A stretch of DNA of 64,000 nt from NCBI GenBank assembly GCA_022385805.1, contig MU277689.1, forward strand, positions 62,001 to 126,000, written 5' to 3'. The translations under genes were made by a program, and so were the position numbers. Of the stretch, positions 43,911 through 54,458 are shown in pieces. The notes under the pieces are model-generated. The model saw only the letters and a program-made list of their open reading frames with translations, searched no databases and was not told where the DNA came from. The first letter of the stretch is position 1. Every line of letters starts with the position of its first letter. The stretch comes from Pilatotrama ljubarskyi (lineage: Eukaryota > Basidiomycota > Agaricomycetes > Polyporales > Polyporaceae).

Positions 43911-44982
43911 TCACTGGCCGCGGCTCCAGAGCGGGTGTTCCGACCATGGATTCGAGACTCGACGCGGAACAAGCCCTCGTCCCGCTGCATTCCGGTTTGG
44001 CGTAGTTGGTCTTTCGAGCACCCATACCTCCGAGATGCCTGCTCGGCGTGCATAATCGGGTAATCGGTGGTAGTTTAGACCTACTGCGTGAGGACCGTGG
44101 CTGTCGTCCGATAGAGCAAAGCGGCCTCCAGTTGCGAGTATGATCTGACTGGGTATTAGCCACCGCATGACATTTGCAACAATTTGAGGGCGTACCTCGA
44201 CGACGTCCTCTCCTGGATAGGACGCATCCCAGCCTTTGCGGAAGGCAGCCGCGTTCAGCTCGAACAGCGAGCCATACTCGACTGCATATTGGACATTTCG
44301 GTGTATGCGCTCCATCGCTCCGGGGTAGTCTCGAAATCGCAGACAAGGATTGTATAACCGACAGAGGTCGAAGTGCCCGATGACCTCGGGATGGAACCGG
44401 CGCATGAGCTCATATTGAGAGTCAAAGTAGGAGCATAGGAAGGCCTCCATCGTGTCGTGCACCCGTGCCTCTGACAGCACTTCGGATCCGGTTTGGTTGA
44501 ACGACTCTAACGCCTTCACGAAGGTTTCCTTGTCAAAATCGATCGGAATGCCATTGACATGGTGGACGGAGCCCACGAGGTACTCGATGCGATCGCCGGA
44601 CGATGCAAGGAGCGCATCGAGCTCGTCGAGGTCAACTTTCGTGATCGATTCGGTTTCGAGGCCGACGAGGAGATTGATCTGGGAGGCATACTTCGCTTTG
44701 AGCCTGTGCGCCTCGGTGAGGAAGGCGTCAAACTGGGCGCGAAGAGAATCTATGGACATGCCCTCCTTCATTCTTGTTGTCAGCATGCTTCTCTATATCG
44801 TGATAACATTACTCATTTCTCACCTCTTCCGGGTACAAGTCCTCGACGCGATAGCGGGGCACATGCTCTGTCAGGCCAAATGTATCGAAGCCCTTCCGGA
44901 TGGCTTCGATCACCACTTCCTCGAGCGTGCCAGAGGCATGCTTGCAGAATTGACCGGAGTGGGAGTGGTGACTTTGCGGCAT
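43911..44982 (-). CDS. Histidinol-phosphatase (PHP family)
   Basis: Removes phosphate from L-histidinol phosphate, the penultimate step of histidine synthesis. It begins MPQSHHSHSGQFCKHASG (44982) with the metal-binding HxH of the PHP domain. It continues with FDTFGLTEHVPRYRVEDLYP, LLVGLETESI, YLVGSVHHVNGIPIDFD, EVIGHFDLCRLYNP, LFELNAAAFRKGWDASYPG and FALSDDSHGPHAVGLNY, and ends NPWSEHPLWSRGQ. These are the conserved His/Asp/Glu metal ligands of the family. The 51-base intron 44195-44145 has no stop and keeps frame, so an unspliced form would be translatable. The first intron (after LYPEE) is hard to place: the best in-frame choice is very short. Identity is secure; that junction is not. Confidence 0.88.
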
Positions 44983-45616
44983 CTTACGGAAAGCGTGTTT
45001 CACGGGAAAGGTCGAGTAGTAATGGGTCCACACTGCCTTGAATGCGTCGTCCAGGCTCAGAGTGACACTGACTCGATGGACGGTGGCGGTGCTAGAGAAA
45101 GGTGTGCAAGAACTGCGACACATCACAACCTCAGCGATGATAGCGCTCGGCACGATGTTGAGCTGACGCGTCGACAATTCCTCTTTCTTACCGTCGCGCT
45201 CAGTTCGTGATGCTGGCATGTTTACGTAGCTGGCGCCCTGCCTAGTGGTATGGCCGCCACAATCAAGACCGACTGTGATCACTGCCCTCTCGGAGCAAAC
45301 AACAGCAACACAAGGGTATATATGAGCAAACACGGAGGAAGTCCATCTAAGCTACACGCATCAGCGCACCAGATACGGAGACCGAACTCGAAGCATTCGA
45401 ACTAATGGGGATACGAGAGGGTATAGATGGGAACGACGGACCCAAGAAAGCGAGAGCACACGCCGAGATAATCTATGAGGATACGGCACAATACGGCCCG
45501 GGAACGATACGATGCCGAATTGAACAACACCGTACCACCCAGCGAATAACTGGCAAACTTACATGGCCGAGAAAGAGCCTGGTCCGAGGCCGAATGTGAT
45601 ACATATAGTATGCTTC
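44983..45616. promoter_or_regulatory. His-phosphatase promoter region
   Basis: Upstream of the phosphatase start and downstream of the HMG-box gene. A TATATA element at 45317-45322 faces the phosphatase gene, about 335 bases before its ATG, so a longer leader or leader intron is possible. Confidence 0.4.
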
Positions 45617-47315
45617 TCAGCATTCGGTGAAGTTGAACCACGACCGGGCCTCATCCGAGTCGAACGCGCACTGACCGGTCTGCCAGACACCGTCAGCCTC
45701 GACGCCCGCCGGGCCGTGCTCGTCCGACACGTCTGCAGGAGGGGAGACGTCCACGACTTGGAGCGGCCGAGTGAAGGTGCGAGGCACAGCGGCTGGGGCA
45801 TCTGTGAGAGGTCCGACTTCGACCTGGGGAGACGAAGAGACGTTGTCGCCATGGCTCGAGGCAGGTGATTGTGGGAGCGTCGCACCGGCACGCTGGTGCG
45901 AGTGTAGCACAGCCGGAGCATCGCAAGGGGCGAAGTCGGAGAGGGGCGGGCCATGCGCCTCCAAAGTGGAGGAAGGTGGCGGCTGCGGTCCCGCGATAAA
46001 ATCGCACGCCACCGTCGAAGGGGAGTAGTGCGCATGGGAGACCTCAGATGCAGTTGGGCCATAGTGGGAGAACGATGCTAGACCCGGAGTGGCAGCCTCA
46101 TGCGAGACCGGCTGCACATGTAGCCCCGTCTGCTCCGTGATGTACGATGCGCGGGAGGAAGAGGTGAACGCTTCGGCGAGGATTGGAGGTGGCGCCTGTA
46201 GCTGGATACAGCTTCCAACGGATGTGGAGGGACCGGGCGCGCGCTGCAGCACGGTGCTGAAGTCACAGAAGCCCGAGTCCAGCGGTGCAAAGGCGGCGTT
46301 CCAGCTGAAGGATTGTTCCGATGGATGCTGCGACTGGGTTACGAACCTTTCCGGCACCTATGCATGAGATCAGTCTTTAATACTATGTAGGCGATGTCCA
46401 TGTGTATGATGAGGCTTACGGCGTCTGACCAGACCTGGGGTTGACGTGAGGTTGGCGCTAGGCGTGCTCTCTTCCTCGGACGGTTGGAAACATCGTCCGC
46501 GTTATGAGCTGCCCAGGGGTGAGAGGCGGAACTCATAGCCAACCCCATCGTGTTCCGCCCAGAGGAGAAAAACGGTTGGAGCTGGGGGTCGCTAGAGGCG
46601 AATCCGGTGTTCGCTGCATAGCCGTATGTTGTGTGTGAAGCTATATAGGGATGCTACAGATTGTGGTGACGGTCAGGGATGGGTAAGACAGAACAGATGA
46701 CGTGTGTGTGCGTACCGCAGGTATCTCCAAGCTATCCTGTGAGGCGCGTTGCTCCAGCTCTACCATGTTGAAAGGCGCGTGTTCGGATTCCATGAGGCCG
46801 GAAGACGGAGTTATAGGACCGGAGCTGCCCTGCGGATATGGAGACCAGGAGAGTGGTGGCGTAGACGCCGCGGAAGAGCTCATGGAAGGAAGGAAGAATT
46901 GACCAGGAGGCAGGTACGCCGGTGAGAACCCCGTGAATGGATCCGCATGAGTTGCCCGAGGGGGAGAGTGAGCCTTCCTTGTGCGCTCCGCGGCAGCCTT
47001 GGCTTTTCCCTTCTTCGTCCTGGTTTTGAACTTCCACTCAGGGTGTTTCTCCATATGTTCCAACTTGGCCTCCTCGGCGAGGGCGTAATATCTCCCTTGA
47101 ACCTCCGCGCTTTCCTGTCGCCACATGACACCAATGATCTTTGATAACGCCGCCTCAGGCATCGCCTTCCCCCCGCTCTCGCCGGGCTGGGTCTTCAATT
47201 CCTTGGACTTCACTCGGCGATATAGCATGAAAGCGTTGGGAGGCCGCTTGATCGCGTCCCTCTCAACATATGGGAGCTCGTAGTCCACGTCTTCATGCAT
47301 CGATAACGCGTCCAT
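45617..47315 (-). CDS. HMG-box transcription factor
   Basis: Starts MDALSMHEDVDYELPYVERD (47315). The HMG box follows at once: RDAIKRPPNAFMLYRRVKSK, then LSKIIGVMWRQESAEVQGRY, YALAEEAKLEHMEKHPEWKF and a basic tail KTRTKKGKAKAAAERTRKA. This is the MATA/Sox-like class used by fungi in mating and sexual development (Ste11, Prf1-type). Introns follow the serine/proline-rich central region; later exons contain NRPRKRARLAPTSR, a probable nuclear signal, and a long Ser/Pro/Ala-rich C-terminus ending ARSWFNFTEC. It has an insertion (TQPGESGGKAMPEAA) between helix 1 and helix 2, which is common in this fungal class. No mating-type partner lies nearby, so a mating-locus role is not supported. Three exons. 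Confidence 0.87.
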
Positions 47316-48397
47316 CGTTGAATAAAGCGGTTCGGCGGTTTGCGAATCGACAGGGCGTGTAGAGAGGCGTGCAGGAAGGGCGAGAAGGCCGTGCGAGAGC
47401 AACGAGTGTGGTGTTGGGAGTAAGGACAGAAATGGCGGGCTCGTTCCCGGCGCGACTTATACCAGTGTGTGAGGGTGGCTACTTGAACAGTGTGAATCCA
47501 AGCAGTCGGGTCGGGTAGCCGATGCGCGAAGGGGAGTGACAAGCTAGCGTGACGCGCAGCCCCTAAGCTGTCAACTGTTTCCTCGGATTGCGCATTGTTG
47601 TACCCTTCTAGTCTAGTCGGCGTGTGAACACCAGGGTAGGCGAGACTGTGCACTCGGTCCTGCTGACGATCCGGAGTGGGTGGAGTGGAGACGCTTGTTG
47701 TCCTCCGGAAGCGCGAGACTGGATGCCGCACGTCAGACCCTTGGCTTGCGCTTTGGCGTAGTGTCGGCGTGCCTGGTACAACGGCGCCGACGGCTCAGTC
47801 TCGCACCCTCTCCTTTGTCTTCAGCGGGGTAAGGAGCCCCGCCAGGGCATCGCGTAACGGCCTTGCCCCAGAATGGACATTTAGTCCAGGCAGCAAGGGG
47901 TGCTAGCTCGTGCGCATCGAGGGCGGCTTCGTGAAGCGGAATTAATCTGTATATATGCTTTGATATCAGCCGAGACTGAGAAATGGACAGTGGAAAGGCG
48001 ATGCGGGGTACCTGATGTACGGAGCGGACGGCGCGATCCACAAAGCTACAGCACCTAAGCACCTCTACCGTTCAATTTGGTTACTTCGGCGGAACGTAGG
48101 AGGTAGGGGATGCACCGCTACCTTTCAACCTAGCTTGGTTGCTAGTGAAGCCCGGTCGTGGGTGACAGCTTGCAAAGAGGACTGCAGCGGAGAATCGGAT
48201 CGACGTTTAGCGCGAATCCTGTCAGGAGGATCAAGTCTTTCAGATGAGGCTTCAGGAGCCGGAGTGAACAACCTGCTGTATGTTGCGTCGAAATATCAGT
48301 CAGGCCGGACGACGCACCCGCCGGACGGGCAGCGTTACTGTCGCATCAGCTTACTACGTCTTCACTGGCTTTGACCGAACGGTAAACTGGCATGTAC
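47316..48397. other. Intergenic
   Basis: Promoter of the HMG-box gene and possible 3' exons of the unrecognised gene at 48398-49018. No independent gene. Confidence 0.4.
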
Positions 48398-49514: not shown

Positions 49515-50200
49515 TCAAGGCAAGCCTACCGGCGCCTCCAGCGGTTCCGCTGGATGCTCGTCAAGATACCTCCTCAGCACCGTCCAGTCCCTACACCTGT
49601 GAACCGCACCAACCCCACTCGCCGCATGCTCCCACCGACCGTCCCTCACCCCAGGCTCGTCCGGCTCGAGCGTCGCGTCCGCGTCGCACAGCACCGTCTG
49701 GCGGAGGTACCGCAGGCAGTGCTCGACGTGGTGCGCGGCCCCGGTGCGGTTCGTCACGAACGCGACGCGGAGGACGTCGAGGCAGTGCAGCTGGTGCACC
49801 ATGGAGATGAGGAAGGTCCTCCCCGGTGCCCCGGAGGCGTTCGACGGCAGCGCGGAGGCGGAGGAGGGTCGGAGGGTGGTGAAACCGTCGGAGAGCGGGA
49901 AGAGCGTGGCCCACTCGTCGTCTGCGTACAAAGAGAAGTGCGAGGCGTCGGCGGTGAGGACAAGCCCGACGGACGGGAGCTTTAGCGGCAGTTGGGCGGG
50001 AAAGTCGTCACCTGCGTAGCCTGCGGCTCGGTCCAGGTGAGAATCGGCGACGAAGAGAGTTGACAATAGAACTCACTGTACTCTCGCTCGGCAGGTACCG
50101 ACCTATCGAGGGCGCTCAGCAAGCCGAGGACGAACGCCATGTTCACGAGATTGAGCGCGACGAGGCAGACGACTAGGAGCTTCAGTCTGACGACGGTCAT
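49515..50200 (-). CDS. UstYa-family (DUF3328) membrane-anchored protein
   Basis: Exon 50200-50077 encodes a single N-terminal TM anchor (LKLLVVCLVALNLVNMAFVL). A GTGAGT...CCGCAG intron joins SYAGDDFPAQLPLKLP in frame. Exon 50030-49515 carries the two diagnostic motifs of the family: HQLHC (in SMVHQLHCLDVLR) and HVEHC (in HHVEHCLRYLRQTVLCDADA), plus WATLFPLSDGF. The family includes oxidases that cyclise or halogenate ribosomal peptides and other fungal products, for example in the ustiloxin pathway. Two intact HxxHC motifs suggest an active metal enzyme. The chosen ATG is the first in the exon; an upstream exon ending at a CCCTACCAG acceptor is possible. Its neighbours, a DLPRPD-type small protein and a secreted peptide, fit a peptide-modification locus. 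Confidence 0.85.
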
Positions 50201-51004
50201 CGTGGTCGCGCGCTGCACTACGGGTACCTGGTAGGGAGGAGGAGATCAGTGAACGTGTGGCCGTGCGTGTACGGTCGTGAGAGGTCCGGCTGCAGCGCAC
50301 AGGGTCGGTGAAGGCTGGCCATGACGTCTCCGAGCCGTGCTGTATTCAGGCTCGTTCAGTCAGAAGACTTACTCCGGGCGGAGAGGCAAACCGAGCAGGG
50401 ACGAAGTTACCCCTGACATACCGCCCGAATGCTTCTACGATGGAGAACGCCGTGCTGCTTGTCGGGCTACTGACATCGTTTCGCCTCGATTCCTAAGAAG
50501 CAGCTCACCCGCATGAGCAAGAGACGTATGTCGATGCCTCGTGGTGAACGCCCGCCTCGTGTACATCAGGAGAGAATGTCAGCGCCCAGGTACAGCTTGG
50601 CGATGTCTTTGTGTACTGCGGAGAGTTGTCACCGTGTGCGAGCAGAGGAAGTAGAAGCACAAACGAGCTGACCTTCCTCATGGACCCGTACCGGAAGCTC
50701 CCTCAGGCTGGCCACATAAAGAATCAAAGAAGATGGCGGTGCAGTGCACCGCGTCAACCTTCTATTGAACCATACCTGATGGTGCGCATTCTTGAAACCA
50801 CTATGACTAGATGCGTATACATCCCGCTGCGGGACCAGCCCACGAGGCTTAAAGCGACTGGTATGTCGTTCGGGGAGTGCCATCCCCCCAGGCCGCCTCC
50901 ACGTCCGCCCAGACTGCAGCCGCAGAGTCATCAGCGTAGGCGTCCTCCCTGAGGCCTGTGTACAGCGTTGACGTGCCTTTTCTATCCTCAGGAGTGACGA
51001 CACC
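50201..51004. promoter_or_regulatory. Divergent promoter region in the UstYa locus
   Basis: Separates the UstYa-family gene (minus) from the DLPRPD-type gene (plus). Frames here are short and antisense to each other. A shared promoter would allow co-expression, which is inference. Confidence 0.4.
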
Positions 51005-51292
51005 ATGTCCTACTTGCCGCTGCAACAACGTACCTACGACAAGGAAGGGCCAGTTCAGGCCGCGCGCTACCATGCTCTCGTATCCGCCAAAAAGACGCCT
51101 CTTGCCAAGCGGGACGGCCTGCCTTCGCGTTGGACCATTTGCGTCCTTGTTCTGGTCACGGCGAATATCCTTGCCCTCGCGTTCGCCGCCCTCGCATTCA
51201 AGACACTCTATCACGATCTCGAGACCGGCCTCGAGGCCACCGACACGCGCGACCTTCCCCGTCCCGACGCCTTGTATGGGTTAATGAGGTAG
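51005..51292 (+). CDS. Small single-pass membrane protein with DLPRPD motif
   Basis: A 95-residue single-exon protein. It has a soluble N-terminus (MSYLPLQQRTYDKEGPV), one hydrophobic helix (ICVLVLVTANILALAFAAL) and a short lumenal end reading DTRDLPRPDALYGL. The TM plus (T)RDLPRPD...GL layout resembles the N-terminal anchor module of basidiomycete UstYa-like proteins, but the HxxHC catalytic part is absent. I looked downstream to 51890 on this strand and saw no HxxHC motif. It could be a stand-alone accessory subunit, the first exon of a decayed gene, or a separate small family. The TATGGGTTAATGAGGTAG end could hide a donor (GTTAAT or GTAGAT). Confidence 0.65.
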   Translation: MSYLPLQQRTYDKEGPVQAARYHALVSAKKTPLAKRDGLPSRWTICVLVLVTANILALAFAALAFKTLYHDLETGLEATDTRDLPRPDALYGLMR

Positions 51293-51890
51293 ATCCGCCC
51301 GACGACGGCGGGGCAGGGAGAAGGAGGCTCGGTGACTCACCTGCGGTATATCGTCCGACATGCGGCGGTCGGGCGGACATGGGAGGAAGCGCGAGCACGC
51401 GGTGTCCTAGGTCGTCTTTGTGTATATGAACTCGCGGAGCAGTCCGTCCGTTTGTCTTGACGCGACATACGCCGAAGCTGTGTCTTCCACGGGGAAGCCC
51501 GTGTGGGTCCGCGTATTCCATAGCGGGCATACCGACCTTCGAGCGCGGGGCGCTTGGGGAGGGCGCTCGGGAACACGTTCCCGCGACGGGAGGCCATGAG
51601 GCACGTTATATGGTGTGGCACTCGGGACCGCCCGCTACGCGGAGCTTCAAGTCTGTCAAAGAGTGAAGGAACCAGCTCTTCCCAGGTATGATGCCCGCCC
51701 GACCCTCAGGTGCTGCGGCACACTCCTGGGTTATGGCGAGGACGCACAGGGGTCCTGTACGCTCGATGCTTTCGCTCTCGGGTGCTGTTCAGCGTCCATG
51801 GCGCGACGTACTACTTAAGCACTCGCCGGGGAGACAAGTCAGCAGGAACGTACACCCGCTTCTCCCGCCCTAGTAGCACTCACCGACACG
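51293..51890. other. Intergenic
   Basis: Upstream region of the secreted peptide gene. No HxxHC-coding exon or other gene seen. Confidence 0.4.
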
Positions 51891-52348
51891 ATGCACCGCT
51901 CCCTCAGGCTCCTCAACGTCGTCGTCGTCGTCCTCGTCATTTGTGCTGCGACGACATGCGCTGCTCCTGCCGCGGCTGACCGTCGGGGTACGTCCGCCAG
52001 TCTCAGTCTCCGTGCTAGGAGCAGCGGCCCGAGCCGGACTGTACACTCACCACCTCCGTCGCGCCGCTGAACAGACAACTATACTGGCCGCCTCTTCGCG
52101 CATCACGCGCACGAGCGCGTCGGCCCCACGCCAACTGCCGCGACGACGGCGACGGCGTTGGCGTACGCCCCTACGGCCGCTGCAGGTGGGAGCATTTAGC
52201 ACACGGGTCTGCTACCCAAACGCTCAGCCTGTAGACTGACCGCATCTCTCGTGCAGTCACCACTTTGTTGCCCACTCCCATCGCCGAGGCGGGGCCGAGA
52301 CCCCGCTCGTCGAGCACGTCAGCCGTATCCGCGACGACGTCCGGATAA
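51891..52348 (+). CDS. Small secreted peptide precursor with dibasic (Kex2-type) site
   Basis: Three exons (51891-51987, 52075-52185, 52257-52348) with GT-AG introns of 87 and 71 bases. Both junctions are phase 1 and rejoin open frames, which strongly supports a gene. The product is about 99 residues. It starts with a signal peptide (MHRSLRLLNVVVVVLVICAA), then APAAADRR with a dibasic Kex2-like site, then DNYTGRLFAHHAHERVG, and a low-complexity Ala/Thr/Pro/Ser-rich tail to the stop. It has no cysteine in the mature part, so it is unlike hydrophobins or disulfide effectors. Its position by UstYa-related genes makes a ribosomally made, modified peptide precursor possible, though there is no repeated core. 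It may equally be an ordinary short secreted protein. Confidence 0.6.
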
Positions 52349-52978
52349 GAACCTGCGCATGAGAGGTCCCCGAGACGATGAGAACTGCAGAAGTACAGGA
52401 GTCAGCGTGTTGTACGATACGAGACGGCGCCTCGCGAGATGTAGCCATTGGTCCTGTCGAATTTCCGGGGTGTGTGAGTCGGCCGTACGGCGAGTACTAG
52501 ACTATAGCATGTACCAGTATCAAAGTCAATGATCGTTCCGCATGTCTGCGACGAATCTCAGGAGTGCACTCACCTCCAGACGCATCGCAACCAACTTCCA
52601 AACCCGTTCTAATATATCGAAGTCAGCAGCAAAACCCATATACTCATCCCCCATGAATCACTACCGCTGCTACGCATCGGGCTGTCAGGCAATTACAAAG
52701 CACACCAGACAGCCAGATCAGCTGGTAACCCGAGTCTAAAGTAGGCTGTATATGCATCTAAGTACCGCACAGTAAGAAGTCCATACGTACAAGAAAAAAT
52801 CCGCGCGGCGGGCCCGTTGCACCTCCACAACAACCAAGCTAGGACTCGACCCGCCCACGGCGAATGACTGTAAACTATCCTATCCAACAGCGCCCGACGA
52901 AGCGCAACGTATTCCCTCATCGTTAACCTGGTTCCCCCGCGTACCCGGGGAACGGGGACGGGGACGGACGGCTGAGCC
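52349..52978. other. Intergenic
   Basis: Convergent 3' flanks of the secreted peptide gene and the transporter gene. AT-richer than its surroundings. No gene seen. Confidence 0.5.
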
Positions 52979-54458
52979 TCACTTGCTCCCCGCGGTCTTG
53001 TACAACACCAGCCCGACGAGCGCGACCGAGTACCCGAGCACCTGCAACGGCGTGATCTGCGCGCCAAAGATGAGCACCGAGCCCGTGATGAGCAAAATAT
53101 CCTTGAACACGCCCGCGAGCGTGAGCACGAGCCCCGAGCCCGCGCCGACGAGGAACACGGCGGCGATGTTCAGCAGGAACGCGACCATCGCGTTCGAGAT
53201 GAGGATCAGCGGCCTGCCACGCGCGAGTCAGAGTCAGTGCTGCGCAAAAACGGGGAGACATGGGAGGGTAGGAGGAGAGAAAGGGTAAAGGGAGAGGGAC
53301 GCACCCGATGCGCGCGAGCTCGTAGAACGGCGCGAGGCCCTCGGTGAAGGGGAGCACGGCGAGGTTGATGAGCGCGCAGACGGGCGCGTAGTAGTGCAGC
53401 GACACGAGCGGGTTCATCTTCAGGCCGTGCAGCAGGATCTCGATCATGACCAGCCGCGACGCCTCGAACTACCCCGAACAGAGAGCAACTTCTGCGTTAG
53501 CGCCAGACATCCCGCATGAGACCGCGCGAGAAAGGGACTCACGGCGACGGCGGCGGCCTGCGTGAGGAAGCCAATGAGGTTAAAGCGGAGCTCGCCGTGC
53601 GAGGCGAGCGCGACGCCGAACGAGATCATGAAGACGATCATCGCGAGGCGCTTGTTGGGGTCCTGGATGCGGAACGTCCACGAGATGAGGAGGATCGCGA
53701 CGGGGGTGAACGCCTTGAGCATCTGGATGTACGCGACGGAGAGGTAGAGGTACGCGGTGTTGCTGAGGATGAGCGAGCCGCTGAAGAGGAGGCCGATAGG
53801 GAGGATGCTCCGGACGAACATGTCCTTGGTCATGTTCACGTCCTTTGCGCCGTCGACGAGGTGCGTCGTTCGTTGCAGCACGCGCGTGCCGATAGCCTAG
53901 AGAGCGGGAAGAACCGATTGTCAGCGCCATCGTCTGGGGGTAGCTGCTAGACGTGCGCGCGCCCGCGCGCTGGAGGCGGTGGAGAGGGGCGGCGCAGCGA
54001 GAGGGAGACGACGGCAAGCAGGCTGCCGAGCGGCCGTGATTCGCGACGACGGTCGGCGGGATCGGTTCCTGTGGCGGGCACAAACGCCCGGCCGCACTGA
54101 TAGCGTTGACCGCAACCTCTCCTGGGCGCCTCCGAACCGAGCCATGACCGCGCAGAGCGGCGTAGAGAAAGAGGGAACTCACAGCGAACGTCAGATGCCA
54201 GGTGACGAGGAAGACGGGGAAGCGGAATTCGAGGGTGTTGTAGAGGTAGTTGTTGTAGATGATGACGGCGGAGCTGAGGACGATCCAGACGGGGATGATC
54301 ATGGCTGCGGACACCTTTGGCTTGCTGGCACCGCCGGGTCGTGGTGGTGCGGCGGAGACGGGAGAGGGGAGGAGGTCGCCCTGGTCCTTCTCTTCGCGGA
54401 CCTCGAGCATCTGGGCGGTCTCCTCGCTGGACGCGGATGACTTTTCGTCGTGGGACAT
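52979..54458 (-). CDS. Triose-phosphate/nucleotide-sugar transporter family protein (DMT superfamily)
   Basis: Ten-TM carrier in about five exons. It starts MSHDEKSSASSEETAQMLEV (54458) with a soluble acidic N-terminus, then AAMIIPVWIVLSSAVIIYNN and YLYNTLEFRFPVFLVTWHLT, the first two helices of the TPT family. Later exons give SILPIGLLFSGSLILSNTAY, LYLSVAYIQMLKAFTPVAIL, FEASRLVMIEILLHGLKMNP, LVSLHYYAPVCALINLAVLP and GSVLIFGAQITPLQVLGYSV, ending YKTAGSK. The KAFTPVAIL and lysine/arginine motifs are typical of Golgi or ER sugar-phosphate exchangers. The exact substrate cannot be told; solute exchange for phosphate or nucleotide is the family rule. No break seen. Confidence 0.9.

Follow-up and report, generated by a model that had tools for sequence, protein, structure and literature searches.

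The dikaritin RiPPs of ascomycetes (ustiloxins, phomopsins, and asperipin-2a) are made with the HxxHC oxidases UstYa, UstYb, and AprY. In the systems described in PMC6514808, UstYa-family oxidases act on cores released by Kex2. Asperipin-2a (core FYYTGY) requires a single such enzyme, AprY, and ustiloxin requires UstYa, UstYb, and a tyrosinase homolog (PMC6514808). The asperipin-2a cluster described there includes neither a tyrosinase nor an S41 peptidase. Dikaritin precursors are described as typically holding multiple core copies (PMC9233826). Kex2-processed repeat proteins (KEPs) form a broader group, and in the survey of PMC7329392 the position adjoining the repeat-precursor gene is the one at which DUF3328 genes are most frequent. 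According to this survey, tyrosine-containing repeats are more common in precursors with a DUF3328 neighbor than in those without (65.6% vs. 38.2%), and di-histidine content hardly differs (5.7% vs. 3.9%). A DUF3328 gene is among the 15 closest genes for 103 of 1680 basidiomycete Kex2 repeat precursors, and the survey asks whether such cyclization hardly occurs in Basidiomycota (PMC7329392). UstYa genes themselves are many in mushroom genomes, with 16 reported in Pleurotus (PMC8893723) and 14 matches in the genome analyzed here.

In this study, we analyzed a stretch of 64,000 nucleotides, hereafter the window (G000:C20:62001-126000), from the 33.1-Mb genome of Pilatotrama ljubarskyi (Polyporaceae, Basidiomycota). 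On sequence grounds, the window appears to hold a good but unproven candidate locus for a modified mushroom peptide. It comprises a UstYa gene, an ORF for a small membrane protein (the anchor ORF), and a gene for a secreted peptide. The features are listed below in window coordinates; the gene structures are firm except for the last peptide exon.

49515-50200, minus strand: UstYa (PF11807/DUF3328) oxidase gene of two exons (50200-50077 and 50020-49515, with stop), 209 aa.
50201-51004, no strand: space of 804 bases between the start codons of the divergent UstYa gene and anchor ORF.
51005-51292, plus strand: ORF of a 95-aa single-pass membrane protein with the C-terminal ...TRDLPRPDALYGLMR; homologous to the N-terminal region of Trametes meyenii P0079.
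51891-51987, plus strand: peptide exon 1, with the signal-peptide-like start MHRSLRLLNVVVVVLVICAATTCAAPAAADRR and the dibasic RR at 51981-51986.
51988-52074, plus strand: phase-1 intron, GTACGT...CAG, directly after the RR codons; also the sole canonical reading of that junction of the annotated protein P0078.
52075-52185, plus strand: peptide exon 2, with the core NYTGRLFAHHAHERVG at 52077-52124, then a poorly conserved Ala/Thr-rich tail.
52257-52348, plus strand: exon 3 of the earlier model (tail), frame and borders uncertain; P0078 uses another frame, at 52243-52359.

The UstYa gene starts at 50200, is interrupted by an intron at 50076-50021, and has its stop end at 49515. Its translation is a 100% match to the annotated P. 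ljubarskyi protein P0001 (BV20DRAFT_966409). Proteins of the UstYa/DUF3328 family carry an N-terminal membrane anchor within the same polypeptide. The 209-aa protein has the features of the family: a Pfam UstYa score of 75.6 bits (cut-off, 25; E = 6.5e-21), two HxxHC motifs (HQLHC and HHVEHC), and its own N-terminal anchor. A database search with a threshold of E ≤ 0.001 gave 77 UstYa matches, of which 74 hold two HxxHC motifs, two hold one, and one (P0077, a weak match) holds none. The closest homologs, P0002-P0016, are 67-82% identical and come from sources that include Trametes, Lenzites, and Cubamyces. Both motifs are kept in the orthologs, and an N-terminal membrane helix is also found in those that are complete at this end (ortholog alignment, n = 17). 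In a larger alignment of 62 of the 77 matches, with P0052, which lacks one HxxHC motif, among the 15 omitted, the residues W78, H120, R126, H139, H142, C143, C153, and L159 are invariant. The AlphaFold model built on the 62 sequences has a pLDDT of 83.0 and shows a hydrophobic helix at residues 2-34 (block-mean pLDDT, 81-98). The 804-base gap between the UstYa gene and the anchor ORF is possibly a shared promoter region.

The anchor ORF lies head to head with the UstYa gene, encodes one hydrophobic segment, and ends close after a DLPRPD motif. Over 78 columns it is 36% identical to residues 3-78 of P0079. As a lone query it had no Pfam match and no database match, and an annotated P. ljubarskyi copy was absent from the candidates of both protein searches. 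The first-pass annotation had described a UstYa/DUF3328 protein with two intact HxxHC motifs beside a 95-residue membrane protein, had taken DLPRPD for the ending of a UstYa-like anchor, and had proposed that the two form a split anchor/catalytic pair. The descriptions of both proteins were verified: the gene model, Pfam match, and both motifs for UstYa, and the ORF at 51005-51292, the hydrophobic segment, and the motif near the end for its neighbor. The proposed relationship was not supported. LPRPD was absent from all 77 UstYa matches, many of which are fragments at that end, and hhalign profile comparison gave a probability of 4.9% for homology of the 95-aa ORF to UstYa N-termini. No LPRPD-like motif after a hydrophobic stretch was present in 181,008 bases surrounding the 13 remaining UstYa matches in this genome, and no UstYa catalytic remnant was found within 50201-52900. 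With an N-terminal membrane helix of its own, the UstYa protein is a complete enzyme rather than one part of a split pair; for the 95-aa protein, no relation to UstYa could be demonstrated. It is probably an accessory part of the cassette, and any role assigned to it is a guess.

The earlier three-exon model of the peptide gene (51891-51987, 52075-52185, and 52257-52348) uses canonical GT-AG introns and encodes 99 aa. The secretion signal was judged from the hydrophobicity of MHRSLRLLNVVVVVLVICAATTCAAPAAADRR, which is followed by RR and then by the conserved segment. In T. meyenii, a Met at the matching position backs the start codon at 51891. The locus also has an annotated P. ljubarskyi protein, P0078 (128 aa), whose first and last junctions are noncanonical in the DNA; its ends are therefore not to be trusted. 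The two models differ in the frame of the third exon. GC content by codon position is 0.43/0.80/0.77 in the frame of the earlier model and 0.80/0.43/0.80 in that of P0078, and the UstYa gene (0.68/0.47/0.84) is nearer to the latter. The P0078 frame thus looks more coding, over 30 codons only, and the third exon of the earlier model is doubtful. Neither tail clearly resembles P0079. Consequently, the core of the peptide is firm and its tail is not. P0078 (window 51766-52359) may, speculatively, stem from a wrongly assembled transcript, in which case it would be a hint of expression.

Taken alone, the three-exon model is weak. In dinucleotide shuffles of 51830-52400, a spliced ORF of at least 99 aa arose in 67 of 200, and one with a hydrophobic start in 2 of 200. 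The first count and the two noncanonical junctions that P0078 requires would suit a chance reading of the exons with no gene behind them. The rarity of a hydrophobic start argues against this explanation, and 16 identical residues in T. meyenii, in the right place and order, largely refute it; we consider it extremely improbable. Conservation, namely the match of P0079 to the same spot, lifts the peptide gene above chance, and we regard the gene as real in its middle part.

The first-pass annotation had called the peptide a three-exon secreted product with a dibasic site. Its exons were reproduced and its middle part is conserved, but the third exon is doubtful. Of the architecture that it had called different for a basidiomycete, one part was borne out: next to the intact UstYa gene lies the gene of a short secreted precursor that has a dibasic site and no repeats, the signal being judged by hydrophobicity. 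A repeat scan of the peptide gene showed no second occurrence of the core; the only repeat was a run of CGT triplets within the signal segment. The possible second core copy FVAHSHRRGG was not counted as one, as 123 of 2000 shuffles did equally well or better. No dibasic site 3' of the core is conserved between P. ljubarskyi and T. meyenii. The short CGT repeat (window 51917-51938) encodes the valine run of the signal segment, and its length may differ between strains. NYT (window 52077-52085), which follows RR and one variable residue, is an N-glycosylation sequon and is kept in T. meyenii.

A joint query of the 95-aa ORF and the peptide start returned two proteins from 286 candidates, P0078 and T. 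meyenii P0079; the search covered proteins roughly 86-271 aa long with exact matches of five-residue words. P0079 (190 aa) carries the anchor ORF homolog first and then the peptide homolog, in the same order as in P. ljubarskyi. Its peptide part reads M...APVDRRGNYTGRLFAHHAHERVGPT, and the P. ljubarskyi counterpart is ...AAADRRDNYTGRLFAHHAHERVGPT. The layout of signal, DRR, and core is the same, and all 16 residues of NYTGRLFAHHAHERVG after the dibasic site are identical. The block from DRR to HERVG, which was picked after viewing the alignment, has 19 of its 20 sites identical, vs. 18 of 63 aligned sites in the rest of the peptide. When P0079 was searched in six frames against the complete P. 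ljubarskyi genome, the only matches at E ≤ 10 were the peptide spot (E = 6.4e-7) and, on the same strand about 0.8 kb upstream of it, the anchor ORF (E = 0.002; two candidates scored). The records of P0079 and of the T. meyenii UstYa ortholog P0014 both give a contig of 988,035 bases; the two genes are therefore probably on one contig, which is not proof of adjacency. Likewise, the records of P0001 and P0078 both give a contig of 419,518 bases. The contig of the window (C20) has 404,635 bases, so that the assemblies or their trimming differ. Co-occurrence of the three genes in relatives, on which the first-pass annotation had made its proposal depend, was thus found in part: T. meyenii has the anchor and peptide homologs in the same order, with the UstYa ortholog probably on the same contig, and it is the one species besides P. 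ljubarskyi in which the peptide homolog was found.

P0079 is annotated as a single 190-aa protein covering both parts, which raises the explanation that anchor and peptide are one gene for a membrane-tethered proprotein that releases the core. In the window, however, 598 bases and a stop separate the two, and the segment that links them in P0079 has no clear counterpart. In both species the peptide part opens at the same position with a Met and a signal-like segment of its own, and the P. ljubarskyi annotation keeps the peptide separate (P0078). We regard a single gene as quite improbable.

A further explanation is that the UstYa enzyme has another substrate, the 95-aa ORF and the peptide being unrelated genes between UstYa and a transporter gene. 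The 14 UstYa matches are spread over four contigs of the genome, and UstYa orthologs occur in many Trametes species for which the search gave no peptide homolog. This absence weighs little, since the T. meyenii peptide, if read alone, would be 83 aa and correctly annotated peptides near this size in other species fall outside the size range of the joint query. We think this explanation improbable.

The reading that we favor, and that we hold to be quite possible if slightly short of probable, is a conserved minimal cassette of three genes in which UstYa modifies a single, non-repeated core released by Kex2. It would consist of UstYa as a membrane-bound oxidase, the divergent small single-pass membrane protein, and, behind that, the one-core secreted precursor. 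The signal peptide would lead the precursor into the secretory pathway, and Kex2 would cut it after DRR. The segment so exposed, [D/G]NYTGRLFAHHAHERVG, is rich in Tyr, Phe, and His and would be oxidized by the neighboring UstYa, the catalytic part of which is predicted to face the same lumen as the precursor. We propose oxidation of the segment after RR because of gene position and enzyme family. The most likely chemistry would be cross-linking or hydroxylation of side chains, with Tyr as the first candidate and His as a possible one. In favor of this reading are the complete and conserved UstYa gene, the conserved block after DRR, the shared order of anchor and peptide homologs in T. meyenii, the precedent of AprY, and the Tyr-containing repeats of precursors with DUF3328 neighbors; the single core and the lack of a conserved dibasic site behind it weigh against it.

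Like the dikaritin clusters, the locus has an HxxHC oxidase gene adjoining the gene of a secreted precursor with a dibasic site before the core, the signal being judged by hydrophobicity and the cleavage predicted. Tyr is again present in the conserved segment, and there is only one UstYa, as in the asperipin-2a cluster described in PMC6514808. Unlike the dikaritins, the peptide has a single core instead of several repeated ones, a longer His-rich conserved segment, and a basidiomycete host. An accessory tyrosinase or S41 peptidase is not found nearby: tyrosinase matches in the genome are on contigs C5 and C6 only, with none on the contig of the window, and no S41 peptidase was found in the genome at E ≤ 0.001. 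The peptide resembles the DUF3328-linked KEPs of PMC7329392 in its predicted secretion and dibasic processing and in its adjoining DUF3328 gene. Di-histidine motifs are given there for two DUF3328-linked KEP types, G-3 and G-8, both from Ascomycota (PMC7329392). In contrast to KEPs, it has no repeats, and the definition used in the KEP survey would probably miss it. Conserved repeats are likewise lacking in the lichen DUF3328 clusters, for which a single core is one suggested possibility (PMC12048977). Those clusters are described without an identified precursor (PMC12048977), whereas the P. ljubarskyi locus has a conserved candidate core.

The main rival to modification by UstYa is that the peptide, though real, secreted, and cut by Kex2, is a signal or resembles an effector and is left unmodified by UstYa, the genes being neighbors for other reasons. 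The strong conservation of the core can be explained without modification, and the conserved NYT sequon after RR fits an otherwise unmodified secreted peptide. A DUF3328 neighbor is missing for 1577 of the 1680 basidiomycete Kex2 repeat precursors in the survey of PMC7329392. Since di-histidine content barely differs by DUF3328 neighbor, the richness of the core in His does not speak for UstYa. Two points count against an unmodified peptide: the UstYa gene is intact, close by, and divergent, and its T. meyenii ortholog is probably on the same contig as the peptide homolog. We judge it unlikely, but the single core, the few DUF3328 neighbors in basidiomycetes, the parity of di-histidine, the NYT sequon, and the missing tyrosinase and S41 peptidase keep it in first place among the rivals.

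The favored cassette may be extended to a new type of basidiomycete RiPP cassette, in which UstYa, a dedicated membrane partner, and a single-core precursor yield a cross-linked Tyr/Phe/His-rich core, possibly joined via histidine. We consider this distinctly unlikely; if true, it would mean a metal-binding or signalling peptide common to Trametes-like polypores. The pairing of UstYa with a precursor is already known. In the open-licence literature, which was partly covered, we found no characterized basidiomycete UstYa product and no report of this peptide, nor a description of a single conserved core with a small membrane partner in a basidiomycete. Because the locus points to a single enzyme, a possible partner, and a conserved core of 16 residues, the question of what basidiomycete UstYa proteins act on becomes directly testable. 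The locus also suggests that repeat-based precursor searches overlook substrates with a single core.

Upstream of the UstYa gene, Pfam identified an HMG-box protein (window 46644-47456, minus strand) and PHP-domain exons (43914-45351, minus strand). The cassette is bounded on the right by exons of a triose-phosphate-transporter family (TPT) gene (52979-53896, minus strand). The 13 further UstYa matches of the genome lie at G000:C15:123416-167136, G000:C19:154109-219704, and G000:C40:91634-94589, in groups of 6, 5, and 2 that look like clustered families. Among these 13, L009 is interrupted by a stop within the frame that matched. A secreted-looking ORF on the minus strand, MYRLQVAYLFSIFLLVLAVIVPPIEAAPAMNIC (L024:9306), lies about 1.6 kb away from one of the C19 matches and may be exon 1 of a further precursor.
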